Assembly (NCBI RefSeq): GCF_000429945.1
Contig: NZ_AUCV01000001.1
Span: forward strand, 62,001 to 126,000
Direction: 5' to 3'
Origin: Desulfogranum japonicum DSM 18378
GTDB lineage: Bacteria > Desulfobacterota > Desulfobulbia > Desulfobulbales > Desulfobulbaceae
DNA: 64,000 bases
Made by a program: the position numbers and the translations under genes. How positions within the stretch are numbered: position 1 is the first letter of the stretch; each line of letters starts with the position of its first letter. Below, in pieces: positions 2,594 to 60,511 of the stretch. The notes under the pieces were generated by a model. The model saw nothing but the letters and a program-made list of their open reading frames with translations. It was not told where the DNA came from and searched no databases.

Positions 2594-4684
2594 TCAAGCT
2601 TTACGTTTGTTTAAAATCTCTTGGACAGTGTGTGTTAATACCTTCGCACGTATGGGTTTCATCAGAAAATCGGTGATTCCGATTTCTGTAGCAGTGTCTT
2701 TTGAAACCATGTTACTGTATCCGGTGCAAAGAATGATCGGTATTTCAGGTCGTAATTCCAGTATCTTTTTGGAAAAATCAACGCCTGAAAGGTGAGGCAT
2801 TGTCTGGTCGGTGATGACAAGAGCAAAACGGTCAGGGGACCTTCGTATTTCGTCCAATGCTTTTTCACTGTTGCAGTGGCCGATAACCGTATATCCCTGA
2901 GTCTCCAGTACCATCTTGTACAGATCAACAATGATTTTTTCGTCATCAACAACCAGAATGCACTCACTGCTTCCTGCAACCTGTTCTTCTTTGTCTATTT
3001 GCTCTGCAATTGGTTTTGTTTGCATTTGAATGACAGGAAAAAAAATTTCAAATGTAGTCCCACTGCCAAGCTCACTTTTCACCTTGATAAATCCCCCACT
3101 ACTCAGCACAACTCCATGGACAAGGGAGAGTCCTAATCCACTTCCCTGTCCAAATTTCTTGGTGGTGAAATAAGGGTCAAATATCTTTTCAATGATCTTA
3201 GGATCAATCCCCTGCCCCGTATCGCTCACCGAAAGCTCAATAAACGGCCCGGGAAAGAAATTTTCCTGGTCAGGCAACTCTTTTTTAGTCAGCATCACCT
3301 GCTTAAGTTTGATGGTAAGGGTACCTTTTTCATCAGCCATAGCCTGGACAGCGTTTATGCAAAGATTTATCAGGACCTGTTGAATCTTGGTCTCATCGCC
3401 CATTATATAGCCAGCGTCGACATCTATCTCTTCACATAATACTACCGTTGACGGCACGGAGGCGTGTAAAAGATTCAGCCCCTCTATTATGACTTCAGAA
3501 AGGTTAAAGGGGGCCTTTTTTTCATTCCCTGTGCGGCTGAAGGTGAGAATTTGCTGTATTAATTCTTTCGCTCTTGTTGAGGCAGATATTACATAATCAA
3601 TATATCCATTAGTTCTCTTCTGATCTGGAGGAATGGCATATTTAATCAACTCAGAATAGCCCATAATGACTGTAAGGATATTATTAAAATCATGGGCTAC
3701 GCCTCCAGCAAGAGTTCCGATTGCTTCCATCTTGCTTGTTTGGAAGAGTTTTTTTTCCACTTTTTTCTGGCTGGTTATATCTTTGGCAATATGGACAATG
3801 CGTTTGATATGACCATTTGAATCGAGAACAGGAGCGCTGCTGACATGAAAAGTTTTGTCGAGATTTTTATATAAGATATTCGCATTGTGACTTTTTGCAT
3901 CGCCAATGGTCTTAACAACAGGACAGTCAGGGCATGGAGTGTCCCTTTCTCGGAAGATCTCGTAGCAGAATCTTCCACCTAACGCTTCTGGATCAATTTG
4001 AAAAGTTTCATACGCAGCCTTGTTGGCACGTACAATTCGCATCTCTGTGTCTTGGATAGTGATAACATCGTTGATAGCATCAAAAGTCTTCTCCCACTCT
4101 TGTTTTGCCTGGAGGTGTTTTTTTGCTGCCTGCTTCTGGGGGGTGATGTCCACGAGTGTAATCCGTAACCCCGTAGGAGTCTCAACGTCGGCAGTCTTTG
4201 CTTCAATATCAAGCCTTACCCAGCGAGGCGCATCAGGTTTGTGCTTGAGTCTCACTTCAACGCTCTGTTTTTCACCTGTTTCAACTGCCCTGAGCCTTGC
4301 GCGAGTGAAGGCCAGAACATTGTGGTCATCGTCAATGTAATTGGTGAATCCAGATCTCTGAATCTGGTTTCTTGATCCCCCTAATAACTGAACAGCAGCA
4401 AGATTTGCACGACTTATGATCTGCTTGGCATTGACAGTAACATAGCCGAAAGGAGCAAATTCGTAGAGTGCTGAGAATTCCTTATGCAGTTGTGCGTACT
4501 CATATTGAGATCGTTGCAGTTCCCTGTTCTGGATCTCCAGTTCTACCTGATGGACGTTGAGTTCATGAATAATCTCTGACAGATCTGTTGGTGTCGTAGA
4601 ATTCGCAGGAAGGTGGAGGCGCAGGAGATTTTCCGCCTGTTCGCGAAGCTTTTCAAACTTCTCTGGATAGCCTGATTGTCTCAT
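2594..4684 (-). CDS. PAS-type hybrid sensor histidine kinase with C-terminal receiver domain
   Basis: This 696-residue soluble kinase has no membrane segment. An N-terminal helical region (1-70) precedes two PAS domains (about 70-190 and 195-310). The second carries the FCYEIFRERDTPCPDCPV cysteine motif seen in many deltaproteobacterial PAS sensors. HisKA follows with the phospho-acceptor His331 in GGVAHDFNNIL, then an HATPase_c domain with an N box and the G-rich GQGSGLGLSLV. A receiver domain occupies about 575-696 with VDDE, phospho-acceptor Asp in LVITDQTMP and KP near the end. It would autophosphorylate and pass phosphate to its own receiver. It lies 59 bases downstream of the CheB-CheR-PAS gene on the same strand, so the pair is probably one operon. 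Confidence 0.9.
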   Translation of the reverse strand: MRQSGYPEKFEKLREQAENLLRLHLPANSTTPTDLSEIIHELNVHQVELEIQNRELQRSQYEYAQLHKEFSALYEFAPFGYVTVNAKQIISRANLAAVQLLGGSRNQIQRSGFTNYIDDDHNVLAFTRARLRAVETGEKQSVEVRLKHKPDAPRWVRLDIEAKTADVETPTGLRITLVDITPQKQAAKKHLQAKQEWEKTFDAINDVITIQDTEMRIVRANKAAYETFQIDPEALGGRFCYEIFRERDTPCPDCPVVKTIGDAKSHNANILYKNLDKTFHVSSAPVLDSNGHIKRIVHIAKDITSQKKVEKKLFQTSKMEAIGTLAGGVAHDFNNILTVIMGYSELIKYAIPPDQKRTNGYIDYVISASTRAKELIQQILTFSRTGNEKKAPFNLSEVIIEGLNLLHASVPSTVVLCEEIDVDAGYIMGDETKIQQVLINLCINAVQAMADEKGTLTIKLKQVMLTKKELPDQENFFPGPFIELSVSDTGQGIDPKIIEKIFDPYFTTKKFGQGSGLGLSLVHGVVLSSGGFIKVKSELGSGTTFEIFFPVIQMQTKPIAEQIDKEEQVAGSSECILVVDDEKIIVDLYKMVLETQGYTVIGHCNSEKALDEIRRSPDRFALVITDQTMPHLSGVDFSKKILELRPEIPIILCTGYSNMVSKDTATEIGITDFLMKPIRAKVLTHTVQEILNKRKA

Positions 4685-7773: not shown

Positions 7774-8390
7774 ATAAAACAGTAATAGAAGAGTGTTGAC
7801 TACAGTTGAAGCTACCTGCTATTTTTCAGTGCTTGAATCAGGTAAGTAGGACATTGTTATCCTGATGAAGCGTAACTATAATCATGTCTATGAGGTTAAA
7901 ACAAAAATAGAATCTATATTATTTTATGTATGAAGCAGCTCACTTTATGCTTTGTTATAATGTGTTAAAGCATTACATTCATCATATTTTTTCAGAAAGA
8001 TTTTGTATACCTATTGGGAGCTTTTGTTCTATTTTTACTTGTATTTATGTGGTGTTATGCTGTATTGCCTTGTTATTTTGAATAAAATTAGAGTGGCAGA
8101 AGCGTGGTAACAGAAGAGTCGTTCGAAAATATTGAGAATGATATCGTGCTGAAATTCAGAAAAAGATATGAATCTTACCGAAGTCACAGAAAATGTGAAC
8201 AAGTTTTTTAACATTTTAGGATTTGACTCTTATTTGAAGAAAGTCAAGTGAGAGCTGTCATCACAATTATTTTTTCTCATTTTTATTTCAGAATAAAAAA
8301 ACGATTATCCAAGGTTCCTTATACCCATTTGTTTGTTTTTTCCTTATTGATTCGACAGGTAGGTAAGAACAGCTTCAACGCTAATCAGAA

Positions 8391-8600
8391 TTGACCCGGG
8401 TTTGCTAAGATAAACTGACCCACCCTCCTTAACACCTAATAAGGAATGAATAGCATGAAGATATTTTCCCCTTTCAATCATTCCCTTGATTTGTTAGTAT
8501 GGACTAATTGAAAGGAAAAAATATCTTTTTTTCCATCGAATAACCATCGTTGGCGCGCGCCAACCGGGCGGGTCAGTTTATCTTAGCACAAGTGGGGCAA
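8391..8600. mobile_element. MITE-like element: 31-bp terminal inverted repeats around an internal hairpin
   Basis: The sequence TGCTAAGATAAACTGACCC at 8403-8421 is repeated exactly as its reverse complement at 8570-8588. The match extends imperfectly to about 31 bp (8391-8421 against 8570-8600). Inside lies a second inverted repeat, 8458-8478 against 8507-8527 (19 of 21 bases pair, 28-base loop), and a perfect 16-bp palindrome at 8549-8564 (GTTGGCGCGCGCCAAC). No transposase ORF is inside, so this looks like a non-autonomous element or the fused ends of a deleted insertion sequence. I see no convincing target-site duplication. Confidence 0.6.
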
Positions 8601-8638
8601 AAAATCTTAGCGTTCACGAGAACAGGGATGAATTGCAT

Positions 8639-38296: not shown

Positions 38297-40909
38297 TCAA
38301 TGTGCCAGCACTTCCCGAATCACCTTTGCCAGCTGCTTGCCTACAAATGGTTTAACGACATACGCCTGAATTCCGATGCTTTTTGCAGTCTGTTCATCTA
38401 TAACTTCACTATATCCTGTACAGAGTATGATCGGTAGGTCAGCTTTTAGCTGCAGCATCTCTTTGGCTATATCAACTCCTGTGAGTTCAGGCATTGTCAT
38501 GTCTGTGACGACCACATCAATTTCATCGGCATGGGATTTGAAATATTCCAGGCTTTCCCGGCTGGAAGAAAAGGCCGTGACATTGTAGCCAAATGTGGAG
38601 AGGCTTCGTTTAATGATGCTTGCCAGTGCCTGTTCATCGTCAACCAGCAGGATGTGTTCGTTTCCCTCAATATCATTTTCCGGACCACCGCTTGGTTGTT
38701 GTTTGGCTTGCATTATCGGAAAATAGAGTCGAAAGATACTCCCCGTACCCGGATGACTCTGTACTGTTATTGCCCCGCCGAGTTTGTTTACAATACCAAG
38801 CGTGACGGCGAGTCCCAGGCCTGTTCCCTGCATAGAGGCTTTGGTGGTGAAAAACGGATCAAAGACTTGTCGCTGTATTTCCTGGGCCATGCCGATGCCT
38901 GTGTCACTGACCGTCAACATCACATAGGTACCTGGCTTCAGAACCTTGCCGTCAACTGAATGCAAAGGTTCTGAAATCAGGGTGTCTTCAACTGAAATTG
39001 AAATGGCTCCCTGGCCGTTGCTACATGCCTGGCGTGCATTTGTGCAAAGGCTCATGATGGCCTGGTGGATTTTTGTCGGGTCTGCAATAATCAGTGAACA
39101 GGTTTTTGCAATATATACCGACAGATCAATCGTGGTCGGAAGGGTCGACTTAAGCAATTTACCAACTTCCTTGACCAGGGGCTTGATGTCCATTGGATGC
39201 TGAGCTTCTTCGTCCTGTCTACTGAAGGCAAGTATCTGTTGAACCAGGTCAACGGCCCGGTTTCCCGCCTTTATCACCTGGTCAATATCCTTTTGAATAT
39301 GCTCGTCCTGGGAGGCCTGTTCTCGTATGATTTCGCTGAATCCCAGAATGGCAGCCAGAATATTATTAAAATCATGTGCTATTCCTCCTGCCAGAGTGCC
39401 GATGGCTTCCATTTTCATGGCCTGGTGTAGCTGTTTTTCAAGCAGAACCTGTTCATGGAGCATTCGTTCCTGTTGGGAGATGTCCTGTATGAAGGAAAAG
39501 AGTTTTTCGCTGCCGCCCAGCTCAATTACCTGGCCGTAATATACACAGGGCACTTCTCCTCCGTCTGCCCTGGTAAGCCTAAGTTCAAGATGTTCTATCG
39601 TGTCGTTATTTCTGAGTTTTGTGTTGAGCGAGGCGATGGTTGCCGTCGGCAGGATGCCAAGGTCTACGGGGGATTTCCCTATGGCTTGCTCTCTACTGAA
39701 TCCAATGGAAGTAATGAATGCCTGGTTGACATCCACATAGTGGCCGTTGTCCAATTCACTTATGGTTATGAGCATGGGGATGTGGTCGAAAACCATCCGC
39801 AGAAGAGATTCCTGTCTGGAACGTTCTGTTGTATCTCTGGATATTGCAATAACACTTTGCACGCTGTTGTCAGGGCCGCGTTCAGGTGTGAAGAATATTT
39901 CATAGGAGCGCATTCCTTTACCCTGAAGATCAAGCTCAATGCTGAGTTGTTTCGGCTCGTTAGAAGTCAGCACCTTTTTTATGGTCAGATCCAGTTTTTC
40001 TGCTACCGCCGGTGGAAAACCTAGTTCCAGATAGGTTTTTCCGAGGATTTGATCACGGGCTTTGCCCAATCTACGGCAGGCTGCATCGTTGGAGTAAATA
40101 CGGCGTCCATTTCTATCAAAGCGGATAATAGAATCTGTGCTGGTGCTGACAATGGTCTCCAGCTCGTTGTTTTTGGCTTCAATGTGACTGAGATATTCTG
40201 ATAGGGAACGGCGCAGCTTGTTCAGTGCATTGACGATTTGGTCAAATTCATCGTTACCTGTAGTCTTGCGGAATCTGCTCAGCTGTATGGGGTGATGGAG
40301 TGTCTCCCGGTCAAGATTATTGGAAATAGCAGCGATGGCCTGGAGGTGCCGACCTATCATGAGGTAAAAAAGGAAGTAGCAGAAGCCGCCACCTGTAATG
40401 GCCAGCACGATGATAGCGGCACCTATCTGCATACCTGTTATTTTGAGATCCTCGATGGTGGAGTCAAGTCCTGCGGTAATACGAATAGTACCCGAATCGT
40501 TGCTCTCTTGATCACGGGGCAGAGCAAGTTGCGTAGTATGCTGTAAAAGTTGCTTGGAAACGATAGCTCCGTGGGAGATGGTATGTCCATCTTTAAGGGT
40601 TATGTTGATGGCTTCAATTGCCGGGACGGTAAGCATGCCTCTGGCTATTGTAGAAACGGCTTCTTCATCATGTTCATGGAGGGCTGTGAGCAGAGAGGGT
40701 TCAACGCTAAGAAGAATTTTTTCCATGGTTGCCTGAACATTCTTTTGGGTACAGGTCAACCTGTATGTGATAAAAAGGCTTGAGATGAGCAGGCCGGCAA
40801 GCAGGCTGAAAAAAAAGACGGCCAAGGCAAATCTATGGCCAATGGAAAGGGGCATAATATGTGATATGGGAAAGCGTTGTCGCATGGCCGGTCCTGGGAG
40901 GCTATCCAT
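38297..40909 (-). CDS. Membrane PAS-type hybrid sensor histidine kinase with receiver domain
   Basis: This 870-residue kinase has two membrane helices (about 28-50 and 160-184) around a roughly 110-residue sensor and a HAMP-like region (186-240). Two PAS domains follow (about 245-365 and 370-480), then HisKA with His512 in AGGIAHDFNNILAA, and HATPase_c with GMGTGLGLAV-like glycine boxes. The receiver domain (about 750-870) carries VDDE, the phospho-acceptor Asp in VVVTDMTMP and KPF. It shares the HDFNN class and receiver architecture with the kinase at 2594-4684. It ends 34 bases from the convergent cytochrome gene. No dedicated response regulator is nearby. Confidence 0.9.
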   Translation of the reverse strand: MDSLPGPAMRQRFPISHIMPLSIGHRFALAVFFFSLLAGLLISSLFITYRLTCTQKNVQATMEKILLSVEPSLLTALHEHDEEAVSTIARGMLTVPAIEAINITLKDGHTISHGAIVSKQLLQHTTQLALPRDQESNDSGTIRITAGLDSTIEDLKITGMQIGAAIIVLAITGGGFCYFLFYLMIGRHLQAIAAISNNLDRETLHHPIQLSRFRKTTGNDEFDQIVNALNKLRRSLSEYLSHIEAKNNELETIVSTSTDSIIRFDRNGRRIYSNDAACRRLGKARDQILGKTYLELGFPPAVAEKLDLTIKKVLTSNEPKQLSIELDLQGKGMRSYEIFFTPERGPDNSVQSVIAISRDTTERSRQESLLRMVFDHIPMLITISELDNGHYVDVNQAFITSIGFSREQAIGKSPVDLGILPTATIASLNTKLRNNDTIEHLELRLTRADGGEVPCVYYGQVIELGGSEKLFSFIQDISQQERMLHEQVLLEKQLHQAMKMEAIGTLAGGIAHDFNNILAAILGFSEIIREQASQDEHIQKDIDQVIKAGNRAVDLVQQILAFSRQDEEAQHPMDIKPLVKEVGKLLKSTLPTTIDLSVYIAKTCSLIIADPTKIHQAIMSLCTNARQACSNGQGAISISVEDTLISEPLHSVDGKVLKPGTYVMLTVSDTGIGMAQEIQRQVFDPFFTTKASMQGTGLGLAVTLGIVNKLGGAITVQSHPGTGSIFRLYFPIMQAKQQPSGGPENDIEGNEHILLVDDEQALASIIKRSLSTFGYNVTAFSSSRESLEYFKSHADEIDVVVTDMTMPELTGVDIAKEMLQLKADLPIILCTGYSEVIDEQTAKSIGIQAYVVKPFVGKQLAKVIREVLAH

Positions 40910-41043: not shown

Positions 41044-41199
41044 GTAACTGCTCACAAGGGAGACGGGTAAACTTGAAAGTCTTCCGTATGTGTAACTGAT
41101 TACAGGGTGTCTGAGATTTTCGTCAGCAGGCTGGTGTCGCGTATTTGGTCACAAAGCCAGACTGATCGCGGAAAGATCAGATGGACTGTGAGCCGTTAC
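41044..41199. mobile_element. IS66-type MITE copy 2
   Basis: This 156-bp copy lies in inverted orientation relative to copies 3 and 4. Ends: GTAACTGCTCACA at 41044 and, read from the right, GTAACGGCTCACA. The reverse complement reads through CTGATCTTTCCGCGATCAG and GTAATCAGTTACACATACGG, matching copy 4 along its length. Flanks GTTTTTCG (41035-41042) and GTTTTTTG (41200-41207) resemble a diverged 8-bp duplication, counting one extra G as element. The right end is 34 bases from the start of a small gene. Confidence 0.85.
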
Positions 41200-48718: not shown

Positions 48719-49471
48719 TTATGTTCTGTGAATGGCTAATGGGCCACAGCTTTGACAGGTGGGCATCAGCTCAATGGTATTAATGTTGATGTGTGAAGGC
48801 ATTGATGCTGCCCAAAAAACGCATTCGGCAATATCTGCAGGCGTGATGGGCTTTGTTCCTTTGTATACATCATCGGCCTGTTCCACGTTGCCATGGAAAC
48901 GGACAATGGAGAATTCGCTTTCAGCCAGTCCGGGTTCGATATTGGTTACACGTACTTGTGTGTGCACAAGATCTGTCAGCAGGTTGCGGGAAAATTGTTT
49001 GACAAAGGCTTTGGTTGCACCGTAGGTGTTGCCTCCAGGGTATGGATAATTTCCGGCAATGGATCCCATATTGATAATGTGTCCGCTATTTCGTTCAACC
49101 ATGTGGGGAAGAACGCACCGTGTCAGATAGAGTAGTCCCTTAATATTGGTATCTACCATGGTTTCCCAGTCTTCTATGTTGCATTCGTGGGCTTTTTCAA
49201 GGCCTAGAGCCAGACCGGCATTATTGAAGAGTACATCAATGTTACGGAACTCATCGGGCAGATTCTTGACAAACTCTTCCACCTGATGTTGATCGCGTAC
49301 ATCGAGTTGGGCCTCATATATTGGTACTTCAGGATGTTGCTGACTGAAATTCTGCAGACGTTCACATCTGCGACCAGTGATAATCAGTTTCCAACCCTCT
49401 CGGGCAAAGCGTTCAGCGCACGCTTGGCCAAATCCGGAGGTCGCGCCGGTAATGAGTATGTTTTTTTTCAT
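48719..49471 (-). CDS. Short-chain dehydrogenase/reductase (YdfG-like)
   Basis: This 250-residue NADP-type SDR has TGATSGFGQACAERF for cofactor binding, RR at the end of the second strand (GRRCERL), NNAGLALGLEKAH, and catalytic Ser with YGATKAFV (Tyr-x3-Lys). Closest in pattern to E. coli YdfG, which oxidises L-allo-threonine, serine and related 3-hydroxy acids and reduces malonic semialdehyde. EDWETMVDTNIKGLLYLTR, NIEPGLAESEFS and HININTIELMP are shared with that subfamily. GGGAG lies about 12 bases before the ATG. It precedes fabB in what looks like a two-gene operon. Confidence 0.88.
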   Translation of the reverse strand: MKKNILITGATSGFGQACAERFAREGWKLIITGRRCERLQNFSQQHPEVPIYEAQLDVRDQHQVEEFVKNLPDEFRNIDVLFNNAGLALGLEKAHECNIEDWETMVDTNIKGLLYLTRCVLPHMVERNSGHIINMGSIAGNYPYPGGNTYGATKAFVKQFSRNLLTDLVHTQVRVTNIEPGLAESEFSIVRFHGNVEQADDVYKGTKPITPADIAECVFWAASMPSHININTIELMPTCQSCGPLAIHRT

Positions 49472-49873
49472 TGTATATCGATGCTCCCTGGAGATCGTTA
49501 TGTTGTAACAAGGAGTTAAGCATTGTTGTATCTCAAGTGGTCTTTGCCTGCAACTGTGTTTTACAGGCGGTGTATTTTAACAGATAACTGATTTTGCTGC
49601 CACTGTCCCATTGGTTTAATAACTGATATGAGTGAATGTGTATAATTTAGGCTTGAGTTTCTTGGCTTACTGGTATTTATTTAAAGTATAAATTTTTGAA
49701 TTACACAGAGTTGTCTTAGAGGCAACCTTTGGGGCTGTTTTGACAGGAATAATTCATAGGACTTCGTGTGCGTACTATTTTTGTCTAATCTCCCCAGACA
49801 CTGCCTGTATGGTGTTATGAAGAAGTGTTGCATACGAGAGATTTGTTGGTTGATAAAATAAAAAGGAGGGAAT
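49472..49873. other. Intergenic region upstream of the first omptin gene
   Basis: This 402-base region holds the divergent promoters of the SDR gene and omptin 1. Bases 49645-49690 (around TTCTTGGCTTACTGGTATTT) are similar to 51055-51092 upstream of omptin 2, so the omptin duplication included upstream DNA. Otherwise nothing was recognised. Confidence 0.5.
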
Positions 49874-50869
49874 ATGAGAAAAAACATGCAGCGGTCTTTG
49901 ATTGTTTCAGGATGCGCTTTGCTCGGAATGCTCATCACACAGCCTGTGATGGCTTCTGGAACGATGAATTCCGAGCAGCAGACCAAAGGTAATACCACTG
50001 TCAAGGTGAATGACCTGAAGATTGAAGTCGAAGGTCGAATTGGGTTGGGATACCTGAACGGTGAATCCAATGAGTTGGTGTACAACGATGATGGTTCCAA
50101 GCTTAGCCAGCTCATCTGGAAAATAGACAATGTATTCATGCTGAACCTCGGCGGTTCCATCAAGCCTGCATCTTGGATCAAGTTCAATGCTGATGTCTGG
50201 GTGGCCTTGAATGATGGTGACAATACCATGGATGACTATGACTGGTTTGTCACTGGCTGGGATTGGACCCATTGGTCCCACCATGAAGAGGTAAGCCTGG
50301 AAACCGGTCTGATGTTCGATATCAATGCGGAAGTACCATTCTACTCACATCAGAACACTACGTTTTCTGCCCTTGTGGGTGTAAAACGAGATAACTGGGA
50401 ATGGGAGGCACGTGGAGGAAGATACGTATATTCGAGCTATTATCTGTATGATACTGTAGGAGAATTTCCTGCAGGTGAACTTGGTATCACCTATGAGCAA
50501 ACATGGACTGCACCGTATATCGGAGTTGCTTTTTATTCCATGCTTACAAACTGGGATATTTCTGGCCGTGTAATATTCTCACCATTGGTGGATGCAGAAT
50601 CTGAAGATACCCACCATATGAGGGATCTCTTTATTGAAGATGACTTCGATACCAGCTGGATGTGGGCGGCTGATCTTGCTATCACCTACAAATTTCAACC
50701 GAATTGGGGGATTACCGGCTTGCTGAGCTATCAGTACTACGACGAAGCCAGTGGTTCATCAACCTACACAGATTTGACAACCGGTCAGGCGTATCATTAT
50801 TCGTATGACATTGCAGGTGCAGACCATACTGCCACCATGTTGTCTGTCCGTATGGATTATACTTTCTGA
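49874..50869 (+). CDS. Omptin-family outer-membrane protease (copy 1)
   Basis: This 331-residue protein has a signal peptide (to about MAS, residue 28) and a 10-strand beta-barrel pattern ending in an aromatic (DYTF). It matches the omptin layout: NELVYNDDGSKLSQLIWK, the acidic active-site pair Asp121 and Asp123 in MDDYDW, and the Asp245-Thr-His247 that corresponds to Asp-x-His of OmpT. ARGGRYVYSS is also family-typical. The catalytic residues are retained, so activity is likely. Omptins cut proteins and peptides at the cell surface, usually next to basic residues, and bind LPS (family knowledge). AGGAGGG precedes the ATG. A second copy of the same length follows after 485 bases. Confidence 0.9.
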   Translation: MRKNMQRSLIVSGCALLGMLITQPVMASGTMNSEQQTKGNTTVKVNDLKIEVEGRIGLGYLNGESNELVYNDDGSKLSQLIWKIDNVFMLNLGGSIKPASWIKFNADVWVALNDGDNTMDDYDWFVTGWDWTHWSHHEEVSLETGLMFDINAEVPFYSHQNTTFSALVGVKRDNWEWEARGGRYVYSSYYLYDTVGEFPAGELGITYEQTWTAPYIGVAFYSMLTNWDISGRVIFSPLVDAESEDTHHMRDLFIEDDFDTSWMWAADLAITYKFQPNWGITGLLSYQYYDEASGSSTYTDLTTGQAYHYSYDIAGADHTATMLSVRMDYTF

Positions 50870-50899
50870 TTCAGGGGAATCTATCCCTGTCTGTAGTCT

Positions 50900-50946
50900 A
50901 TAAGGCGGAGTCTCCTTTGGTTTTGGGAGCTCCGCTTATTTCTTTT
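50900..50946 (+). terminator. Rho-independent terminator of omptin 1
   Basis: ATAAGGCGGAGTCTCC and GGGAGCTCCGCTTAT form an imperfect 14-bp stem followed by TTTCTTTT, 31 bases after the stop codon. Confidence 0.85.
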
Positions 50947-51097
50947 GTACGCAGCCCTTATTTGTCCCTTTGGAACAGACCGGCCGGAAGGCTGCTATGG
51001 TTCGATTTTGTGTTGTATCCGGTATATGGCTCCGAATATAGGGATTTTTTCTTTGAATTTCTTGATCTGCTGGTATTTACTGAAAAGTAGAGTGAAG

Positions 51098-51259
51098 GTA
51101 ACTGCTCACAGTGCACCTGATCTATCCTCGATCAGCCAGCCTGGCTTACCTCTGATCCAATACGCTGTGCCAGCCTGCTTGTGAAAATCTCAGGCATCCT
51201 GTCACCCTTTACACATACAGGGAGTTTCAAATTTATCCATTTCCCTTATGGGTAGTCAC
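51098..51259. mobile_element. IS66-type MITE copy 3, with 8-bp target-site duplication
   Basis: This 162-bp element starts GTAACTGCTCACAG and ends, on the other strand, GTGACTACCCATAAG. It is flanked by GAGTGAAG at 51090-51097 and again at 51260-51267, a perfect 8-bp direct repeat. IS66-family elements have ends beginning GTAA and make 8-bp duplications, so this is best read as an IS66-type MITE. There is no ORF inside. It lies 95 bases upstream of the omptin 2 start. Confidence 0.92.
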
Positions 51260-51354
51260 GAGTGAAGAATTGTGTTTGGTCCGTGCATACCCAATGGGAA
51301 AAGCGTTGTCGAGAATGATGTATCTGTTTCAAGGAATATCTCTTAGGAGGGAAG

Positions 51355-52350
51355 ATGAAGAAAAAGATGCAGAAGTCATTGGCCGTTTTCGGGAGCATGC
51401 TGCTCGGTGCAGTTGTTGCTCAGCCTGTTTTGGCAGCAGGAACCGTGTCCCCGACTCAACAGGTGCAGGGAAATACGGTTGTTGATGTTAACTCAAATGT
51501 GATGGAAATAGAGGGCCGGTTGGGGCTTGGTTATCTCAACGGGGAATCCAACGAGCTGGTCTATAACGATGATGGGTCAAAATTGAGTCAACTTGTCTGG
51601 AAACTGGATAATATTTTCATGCTCAATGCCGGTGTTTCATTCAAACCGACTACCTGGATCAAATTCAACGCCGATATCTGGGTTGCCCTGAATGATGGTG
51701 ATAATACCATGGATGATTATGACTGGCTTGTCACGGGTTGGGATTATACCAATTGGTCTCACCATGAAGATGTTCCCCTGGAAAAAGGATTGATGTTTGA
51801 TATCAATGCTGAAGTACCATTTTATACATACCAGAATACGAGTTTTTCAGCCTTGATTGGTGTGAAGCACGATACCTGGGAATGGGAATCCTACGGTGGC
51901 CATTATGTGTACTCCACCTACTCTTTCCGTGATTCCTCACTGGATTTTGATCCAAATGATAAGATCATCACCTATGAACAGATGTGGACTGTCCCCTATA
52001 TAGGTCTTGCTTTTTATTCTGTGCTGACCAATTGGGATATTTCCGGGCGGGTAATTTTCTCACCGTTGGTTCAGGGAGAAGATGAGGATACACATCATTT
52101 GCGAGATCTGCTTTTTGAGGAGGATTTTGACAGCAGCTGGATGTGGGCAGCCGACCTGGCCATTACGTATAAATTCAGCCCAAACTGGGGGCTCACTGGT
52201 TTACTGAGCTATCAGTACTACGATGAAGCCAAAGGATCCACAACCATTACAGATCTGACCACAGGCCAAAAATATTATTATCCCGGAGATGCTGCCGGAG
52301 CAGATAATACAGCTACCATGCTTTCCCTTCGTTTGGATTACACTTTTTAG
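51355..52350 (+). CDS. Omptin-family outer-membrane protease (copy 2)
   Basis: This 331-residue paralogue of the preceding omptin has the same length and can be aligned without major gaps. It has a signal peptide cut near VLAAG, the acidic pair in MDDYDW and the Asp-Thr-His in DEDTHHLRD, so the active site is also complete. Differences cluster in the extracellular-loop regions, for example YSFRDSSLDFDPNDKI versus the matching loop in copy 1, and in the N-terminal 40 residues. This suggests different substrate preference. AGGAGGGAAG precedes the ATG. Its upstream region is interrupted by a MITE, so expression may differ from copy 1. A strong terminator follows. Confidence 0.9.
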   Translation: MKKKMQKSLAVFGSMLLGAVVAQPVLAAGTVSPTQQVQGNTVVDVNSNVMEIEGRLGLGYLNGESNELVYNDDGSKLSQLVWKLDNIFMLNAGVSFKPTTWIKFNADIWVALNDGDNTMDDYDWLVTGWDYTNWSHHEDVPLEKGLMFDINAEVPFYTYQNTSFSALIGVKHDTWEWESYGGHYVYSTYSFRDSSLDFDPNDKIITYEQMWTVPYIGLAFYSVLTNWDISGRVIFSPLVQGEDEDTHHLRDLLFEEDFDSSWMWAADLAITYKFSPNWGLTGLLSYQYYDEAKGSTTITDLTTGQKYYYPGDAAGADNTATMLSLRLDYTF

Positions 52351-60353: not shown

Positions 60354-60511
60354 GTAACTGCTCACAGCGCACTTGATCTTTCCGCGACCAGCCTGGCTTA
60401 CGCATGACCCAATACGCTGCACCAGCTTGATTGCGAAAACTTCAGGCACCCTGTAATCAGTTCAAATGCGGGAGATTTTCAAGCTTATTCGTCTCCCCTG
60501 AGAGTAGTTAC
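60354..60511. mobile_element. IS66-type MITE copy 4
   Basis: This 158-bp copy starts GTAACTGCTCACAG and, on the other strand, ends GTAACTACTCTCAG, a 12-of-14 terminal inverted repeat. Flanks AGTGCAGG (60346-60353) and AGAGCGGG (60512-60519) agree at 6 of 8 positions, as expected for an old 8-bp duplication. It aligns to copy 2 (reversed) almost throughout. No ORF is inside. Confidence 0.9.

Follow-up and report, generated by a model that had tools for sequence, protein, structure and literature searches.

Background

Insertion sequences of family IS66 are marked by GTAA...TTAC ends and by an 8-bp duplication of the target, whereas Correia elements, from Neisseria, are accompanied by a TA duplication. 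Among shorter repeats, the CGTC-tagged REPs are palindromes 20-40 bp long, one end of which bears an unpaired CGTC tag; they occur in several phyla, mostly in Alphaproteobacteria, and no dedicated transposase is known for them according to the part of the source consulted (PMC3733652). Recognition of REPs is covered in PMC8266576 and the effects of MITEs on genes are reviewed in PMC10969869, both consulted in part. MITEs of other or unknown families have been described (PMC4853749, PMC9769881, PMC3189936, likewise in part), and no IS66-derived MITE was found in the literature searched, which was covered mostly at title level.

The present analysis concerns a window of 64,000 nucleotides from Desulfogranum japonicum DSM 18378 (the whole stretch of DNA analysed; contig NZ_AUCV01000001.1, positions 62,001 to 126,000), in which a MITE lies upstream of the second of two omptin genes. 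With single-ORF (ISBst12-like) IS66 elements and with IS-derived MITEs it shares the GTAA...TTAC ends, the 8-bp duplication and a similarity of ends to IS66 elements of its own genome and family. Unlike IS66 elements, it is devoid of coding capacity, and its interior holds an order-conserved hairpin instead of a recognisable IS66 remnant. Correia elements are comparable in being short, numerous, hairpin-forming and located near genes, but they have other ends, and a consensus scan found no plus-strand promoter in the D. japonicum element. The CGTC REPs, which are palindromic, spread over several phyla and devoid of a known dedicated transposase as presented in the consulted part of PMC3733652, are likewise comparable; the MITE differs from these in its length of 111-162 bp, its terminal repeats and its 8-bp duplications, the core being 111 bp long with GTAACTG/CAGTTAC ends. 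GTAG REPs and TnpA-REP (PMC8266576, same restriction) offer another parallel, an imperfect palindrome of which a single strand is the substrate, but the duplications of the MITE are of the DDE type.

Insertion upstream of the second omptin gene

Coordinates of the features are listed in Table 1. Omptin 2 matched OmpT with an E-value of 5.7e-20, and its DDYDW and D-x-H stretches were kept in an alignment to a solved omptin. Downstream of omptin 1, the terminator-like hairpin was not flagged by a consensus scan with a loop limit of 8. The element in front of omptin 2 begins with GTAACTGCTCACAG and ends with GGGTAGTCAC, and GAGTGAAG directly abuts it on both sides. The perfect 8-bp target site duplication reported in the earlier note was thus borne out by the letters themselves, as well as by a family-wide peak at length 8 (see below), and the element is a non-autonomous MITE insertion with a target site duplication. 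Taken singly, this insertion is an ordinary event.

Table 1. Features of the omptin locus and MITE copies in the window
Feature	Positions	Strand	Remarks
Block upstream of omptin 1	49596-49688	+	alignment with 50991-51089
Omptin 1 (PF01278)	49874-50869	+	189.4 bits, cut-off 22.6
Terminator-like hairpin and T-rich tail 3' of omptin 1	50903-50946	+	fold -21.7 kcal/mol
Upstream block left of the element	50991-51089	+	homologous to 49596-49688, score 44
Left octamer of the duplication, GAGTGAAG	51090-51097	n/a	sequence and family-wide 8-bp duplications
MITE copy, 162 bp	51098-51259	+	89.2% identity to the 159-bp family consensus
Hairpin core of this copy (consensus positions 1-111)	51098-51212	+	end set by eye on alignment
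Tail including outer right end	51213-51259	+	
Right octamer of the duplication, GAGTGAAG	51260-51267	n/a	sequence
Omptin 2 (PF01278), intact 331-aa frame	51355-52350	+	200.9 bits, cut-off 22.6
Further MITE copy (L041)	41044-41199	-	flanking octamers 5/8
Further MITE copy (L271)	60354-60511	+	flanking octamers 6/8

It had also been noted that the DNA left of the element resembles the sequence upstream of omptin 1. This resemblance proved to be wider than first described, and the score of the two blocks was reached by none of 300 dinucleotide shuffles. The homology of the blocks supports the further suggestion that the element landed in a region duplicated together with the gene, and just one of these blocks is accompanied by the MITE. 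To the right of the element, resemblance to the DNA upstream of omptin 1 lacked significance, 23 and 30 of 300 shuffles scoring equally high, and in an empty-site test on the paralogue, joining the flanks without the element and one duplication left the score unchanged (44 both ways).

Three genomes of the same genus, G004, G005 and G006 (68, 90 and 100% complete, respectively), gave one omptin match each. The omptin gene of G006 lies between beta-ketoacyl synthase and ferritin genes, as in D. japonicum, and these shared neighbours imply either a tandem duplication in D. japonicum or a loss in G006. No MITE match was found in the three genomes; in G004, 14 of 43 candidates were scored. The upstream DNA of these orthologues was barely or not alignable (the best case, G006 against the left block, was equalled by 6 of 300 shuffles), and the more distant G016 reached a score of 36 with the left block, a value attained by 1 of 300 shuffles. 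Synonymous sites were saturated in a dN/dS comparison of omptin 1 with omptin 2.

Two other repeats occur in the window. A 49-nt inverted repeat (8377-8425 / 8566-8614; 76% complementary, arms 140 nt apart, GGGTCA-like ends) is possibly another short mobile element, and a 98-nt direct repeat (3660-3757 / 39342-39439; 76% identity) perhaps corresponds to two paralogous genes.

Element family and hairpin core

At least 40 MITE matches were found in the D. japonicum genome (5.8 Mb in 124 contigs; 40 of 176 candidates scored), and the left-end pattern with at most 3 mismatches occurred at 237 places, versus 2 for the reversed pattern. The elements are short, non-coding and repeated, with inverted terminal repeats (GTAACTGCTCAC at the left, the outer right end beginning with GTAACTACTCA when read inward) and a constant duplication length of 8 bp, at least 7/8 positions agreeing in 23 of 40 copies. 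Identity between copies averages 82.5%, which is roughly burst-like; the omptin 2 copy ranks 25th of 40 in its comparison with the consensus, from which it is separated by 17 substitutions and by indels at 5 positions. Shortened versions of 83, 88 and 136 bp (L259, L267 and L263) with perfect 8-bp duplications are also present in this genome, and their shortening may have taken place before or after insertion. Plasmid and phage collections searched with a near-consensus copy gave no match, and no Rfam family reached its gathering score in three sources with elements of the MITE family.

Bases 1-111 of the consensus fold as one long imperfect hairpin. The consensus was matched in 15 of 57 genomes (D. 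japonicum included), in several of them over positions 1-111 to 1-113 only. By eye, a longer form with an 8-bp duplication was recognised at L062, L064, L066, L067, L069 and L072, and at L063 a bare 111-bp core flanked by the duplication ACAAGGAG; since duplications accompany both forms, either right end seems usable. One core from each of 12 genomes was aligned (that of L003 plus 11 taken from L062-L074), L067, L068 and L075 being omitted because of inserts or truncation. Two-sided changes affected 22 of 44 core pairs (shuffled mean 11.1; none of 500 as high), and covariation amounted to 0.257, compared with 0.108 after shuffling and 0.035-0.088 for slid versions. The structure was that of the consensus fold, a choice that gives it an advantage over the slid versions, and related sequences may exceed shuffles. 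Judging from these alignments, the core appears to be conserved order-wide with compensatory changes. An extra stem (GGAGTCT...CGCTTACCTCC-like) was observed within one hairpin arm at L067, L068, L103, L129, L156 and L165, the L068 element (same-family genome G046) being identical by eye to that of L156.

Such conservation could mean that the repeat is chiefly a structured element used by the host, a REP- or terminator-like RNA whose mobility is incidental, and 29 of 30 copies were indeed intergenic according to crude ORF calls (the 30th overlaps a 125-aa ORF). The same crude calls, however, revealed no clear preference in gene orientation around the 29 copies (+/- 9, -/- 9, -/+ 8, +/+ 3), and the many duplications indicate transposition as a unit. 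We therefore regard host use as an unlikely primary role.

Strand bias of the core

When folded freely, the minus strand was the more stable one in all 40 own copies and all 12 order-level cores. The core of the omptin 2 copy has decayed, its minus strand folding at -38.6 kcal/mol where the 40 copies average -50.2. In free folds, the 12 cores contained 79 minus-strand and 20 plus-strand G-U pairs, with a minus excess in every core; in the 40 own copies the counts were 192 and 118, with a minus excess in 26 and ties in 6. Taking the minus-strand structure as a frame, which is biased towards minus-strand G-U, gave 79 versus 7 cells (16 columns minus-only, 2 plus-only and 5 both; p 0.0013, sign test). 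In this frame, columns 10-102 and 18-94 were C-A or A-C, the equivalent of minus-strand wobble pairs, in all 12 rows and in 11 of them, respectively. When the plus-strand fold served as the frame, the order-level excess was weak (33 minus versus 21 plus cells; 12 versus 4 columns; sign test, p 0.077), and the statistics of all these strand tests ignore the relatedness of the sequences.

Together, these data suggest selection on the minus strand, which may act on it as RNA or as single-stranded DNA. Because copies are found in all gene orientations, the minus strand of the core would be kept for the element's own spread more than for the control of host genes.

Possible consequences for omptin 2

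A consensus promoter scan of 49450-51400 yielded no promoter-like site on the plus strand and a single site overall, on the minus strand, where shuffles gave 4.1. The term 'omptin 2 promoter region', used previously for the insertion site, is justified by its position upstream of the gene and not by any plus-strand promoter-like site in the scanned interval. Since a terminator-like hairpin follows omptin 1, omptin 2 probably needs a start of its own between 50946 and 51354. This hairpin and the homology of the left block to the DNA upstream of omptin 1 place the element, by position, within the stretch likeliest to hold the omptin 2 promoter. According to coordinates, the conserved upstream block, formerly some 95 bp from the start codon, is now separated from it by some 265 bp; the insertion would thus have put it 170 bp farther from omptin 2 and left the gene undestroyed. 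We consider a resulting change of expression possible rather than probable.

The proposal that the element separates omptin 2 from its promoter or replaces the latter found no support in the scan or in the upstream DNA of the orthologues, which could barely be aligned, if at all. Replacement would imply transcription of omptin 2 from a promoter within the MITE or at its right edge. The element does lie 95 bp ahead of the start codon and within the sole stretch between the terminator-like hairpin and omptin 2, and other MITEs, Correia elements for example, have been described with promoters (PMC10969869, in the part consulted), but the only site of the scan is on the wrong strand for this and we judge replacement unlikely. 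Severance from the promoter, followed by silencing, appears more improbable still. It would agree with the present distance of the upstream block, but it conflicts with the intact frame of omptin 2. If the 10.8% divergence of the element from the family consensus is used as a proxy for the age of the insertion, about 4 stop codons would be expected in a gene silenced at that time, and omptin 2 has none; the simulated probability of finding no stop was 0.01 at 10.8% divergence, 0.11-0.12 at 5% and 0.24-0.30 at 3%. The dN/dS of 0.057 obtained against G005 mostly reflects older divergence. In view of the stop-free frame, the insertion does not seem to have killed omptin 2, which, we think, survived it as a gene.

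Candidate transposase and target site duplications

The GTAA ends and the 8-bp duplication of the MITE are those of IS66 elements. In the D. japonicum genome, IS66 transposase fragments terminating with GTAACTGATCACAGGG were present at two contig ends, and several order-level relatives of the MITE begin with GTAACTGCTCACAGGG. A complete IS66 element was identified in a same-family genome (L242, 915-2522); it is 1,608 bp long, with a single 502-aa frame (PF03050, zf-IS66), ends reading GTAACTACTCAG and an 8/8 duplication, TAATACAG. The outer right end of the MITE, read inward, begins with GTAACTACTCA. Four more IS66 elements retained by the same filter (L232, L233, L235 and L258) displayed GTAAGCG-type ends and 8/8 duplications, one end of L258 reading GTAACCG.

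A search of the D. japonicum genome for PF05717 (TnpB_IS66) gave no match, which fits the single-ORF type of IS66. As for an autonomous partner with the same ends, this genome contains IS66 end fragments and no complete assembled transposon, and we therefore infer the mobilising enzyme from the similarity of ends. A single-ORF IS66-type transposase, which we take to be of the kind labelled ISBst12-like, probably moves the MITE. It would act in trans on GTAACTRCTCA ends, and insertion upstream of omptin 2 would have proceeded through an 8-bp staggered cleavage of the target, later than the omptin duplication. We regard the elements as a new IS66-type MITE family, and the joint reading of MITE, 8-bp duplication and IS66-type mobilisation appears very likely to be correct.

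An imperfect palindrome with a strand preference is what could also be expected if an HUH (Y1) transposase moved the element, as is thought for REPs, but the MITE has terminal inverted repeats and 8-bp target site duplications, which Y1 enzymes are not known to produce, and this possibility is very remote.

For the analysis of duplications, both ends were placed on 47 matches, of which 40 were kept and 7 with an unrecognised end dropped (L025, one of the latter, nonetheless has an 8/8 duplication). Flanking octamers of the 40 copies agreed at 8/8 positions in 12, 7/8 in 11, 6/8 in 6 and fewer in 11, with a mean of 6.1. In a control pairing left octamers with the right octamers of other copies (1,560 pairs), the mean was 2.5 and 8/8 was reached once. 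Mean flank identity was 0.76 at length 8 and ranged over 0.26-0.35 for lengths of 4-7 and 9-12. Another 40 copies, drawn from the 237 left-end places and including two also known as secondary matches, showed a right end plus octamers agreeing at 6/8 or more in 20 cases, versus 187 of 1,560 pairs in the control; a matched right end was lacking in 20 of the 40, and 10 of the 20 with a right end were 158-161 bp long. A lone octamer pair such as that of omptin 2 might be due to luck, but the contrast between 12 of 40 copies and 1 of 1,560 control pairs, with a peak at length 8 only, makes a chance match negligible.

Hairpin tip in distant bacteria

An apex pattern derived from own-order elements, GCTTACGTA-(4-9)-TACGCTGCGC, occurred in at least 114 stretches of a genome-contig collection, over the whole of which about 11 chance matches were expected by an arithmetic estimate. 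Among the matches listed, 80 apex loci comprised 38 of Desulfobulbales type (by sequence), 14 from one Rickettsiaceae bin and 28 others which, according to record titles, include Alpha- and Gammaproteobacteria, Elusimicrobia, Clostridia, Peregrinibacteria and one Pacearchaeon. At 17 of these 28 loci, the flanks without the motif formed a stem at z of 4 or more relative to 60 single-base shuffles (two at 4.0), and at the 11 others no stem was detected at z 4. Among 385 genomes belonging to a single class, 3 contained the exact apex, as did 3 of 395 from the phylum of D. japonicum, and the reversed control occurred in none of either; in 21 genomes chosen for the apex, the true pattern was present in 21, by selection, and the reversed one in none. 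Viral contigs contained neither the pattern nor the control.

Apex motifs numbered 14 in the D. japonicum genome. Exact motifs reached 75 in the complete 3.1-Mb genome G027 of the same order (e.g. L302) and 74 in the Rickettsiaceae bin G058 (e.g. L102), where the elements end with TATAGT...ACTATA. Ends of the TA type were seen in several apex elements, such as TATAGT...ACTATA at L102 and TAGAGC...GCTCTA at L107. At L094 and L122, the apex-bearing hairpin is directly beside tRNA genes, its outer arms lying partly in or at them. Ten sources sharing the apex were compared with Rfam, and only tRNAs were retrieved at threshold. Some apex-sharing elements may resemble CGTC REPs, and the interior of Correia elements may resemble the apex.

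The minus strand folded better at 24 of the 28 other loci, with a mean margin of 5.7 kcal/mol, and among 15 Rickettsiaceae matches it did so in 12. For synthetic hairpins carrying the tip alone, the strand difference was 1.7 kcal/mol. On the basis of these searches, the exact tip appears to be rare yet above chance, in repeats with differing ends, and both common descent and convergence are possible. We tentatively propose a strand-specific module, a hairpin with the asymmetric tip GCTTACGTA-loop-TACGCTGCGC, that would travel on mobile repeats served by different transposases. It would be a shared passenger, either an RNA or a single strand bound by protein, and selection would mostly favour the same strand. 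Its carriers might then be the elements with IS66-type ends and 8-bp duplications in Desulfobulbales and, with similar reservation, those with TA-type ends in the Rickettsiaceae bin and other Alphaproteobacteria. This proposal is graded lower because of the weakness of the G-U excess in the plus-strand frame.

Conclusion

The MITE family is outside any Rfam family at threshold, and the literature searched, mostly through titles, was without an IS66-derived MITE. Its noteworthy part is the strand-biased hairpin together with the shared tip. If true, order-wide conservation of one strand in a transposon without genes would imply that this strand is being read. A shared passenger, if real, would explain the spread across phyla of palindromic repeats that lack their own transposase. 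Should the shared tip hold, it would make testable how transposase-less repeats are mobilised, a question raised for CGTC REPs in the consulted part of PMC3733652.
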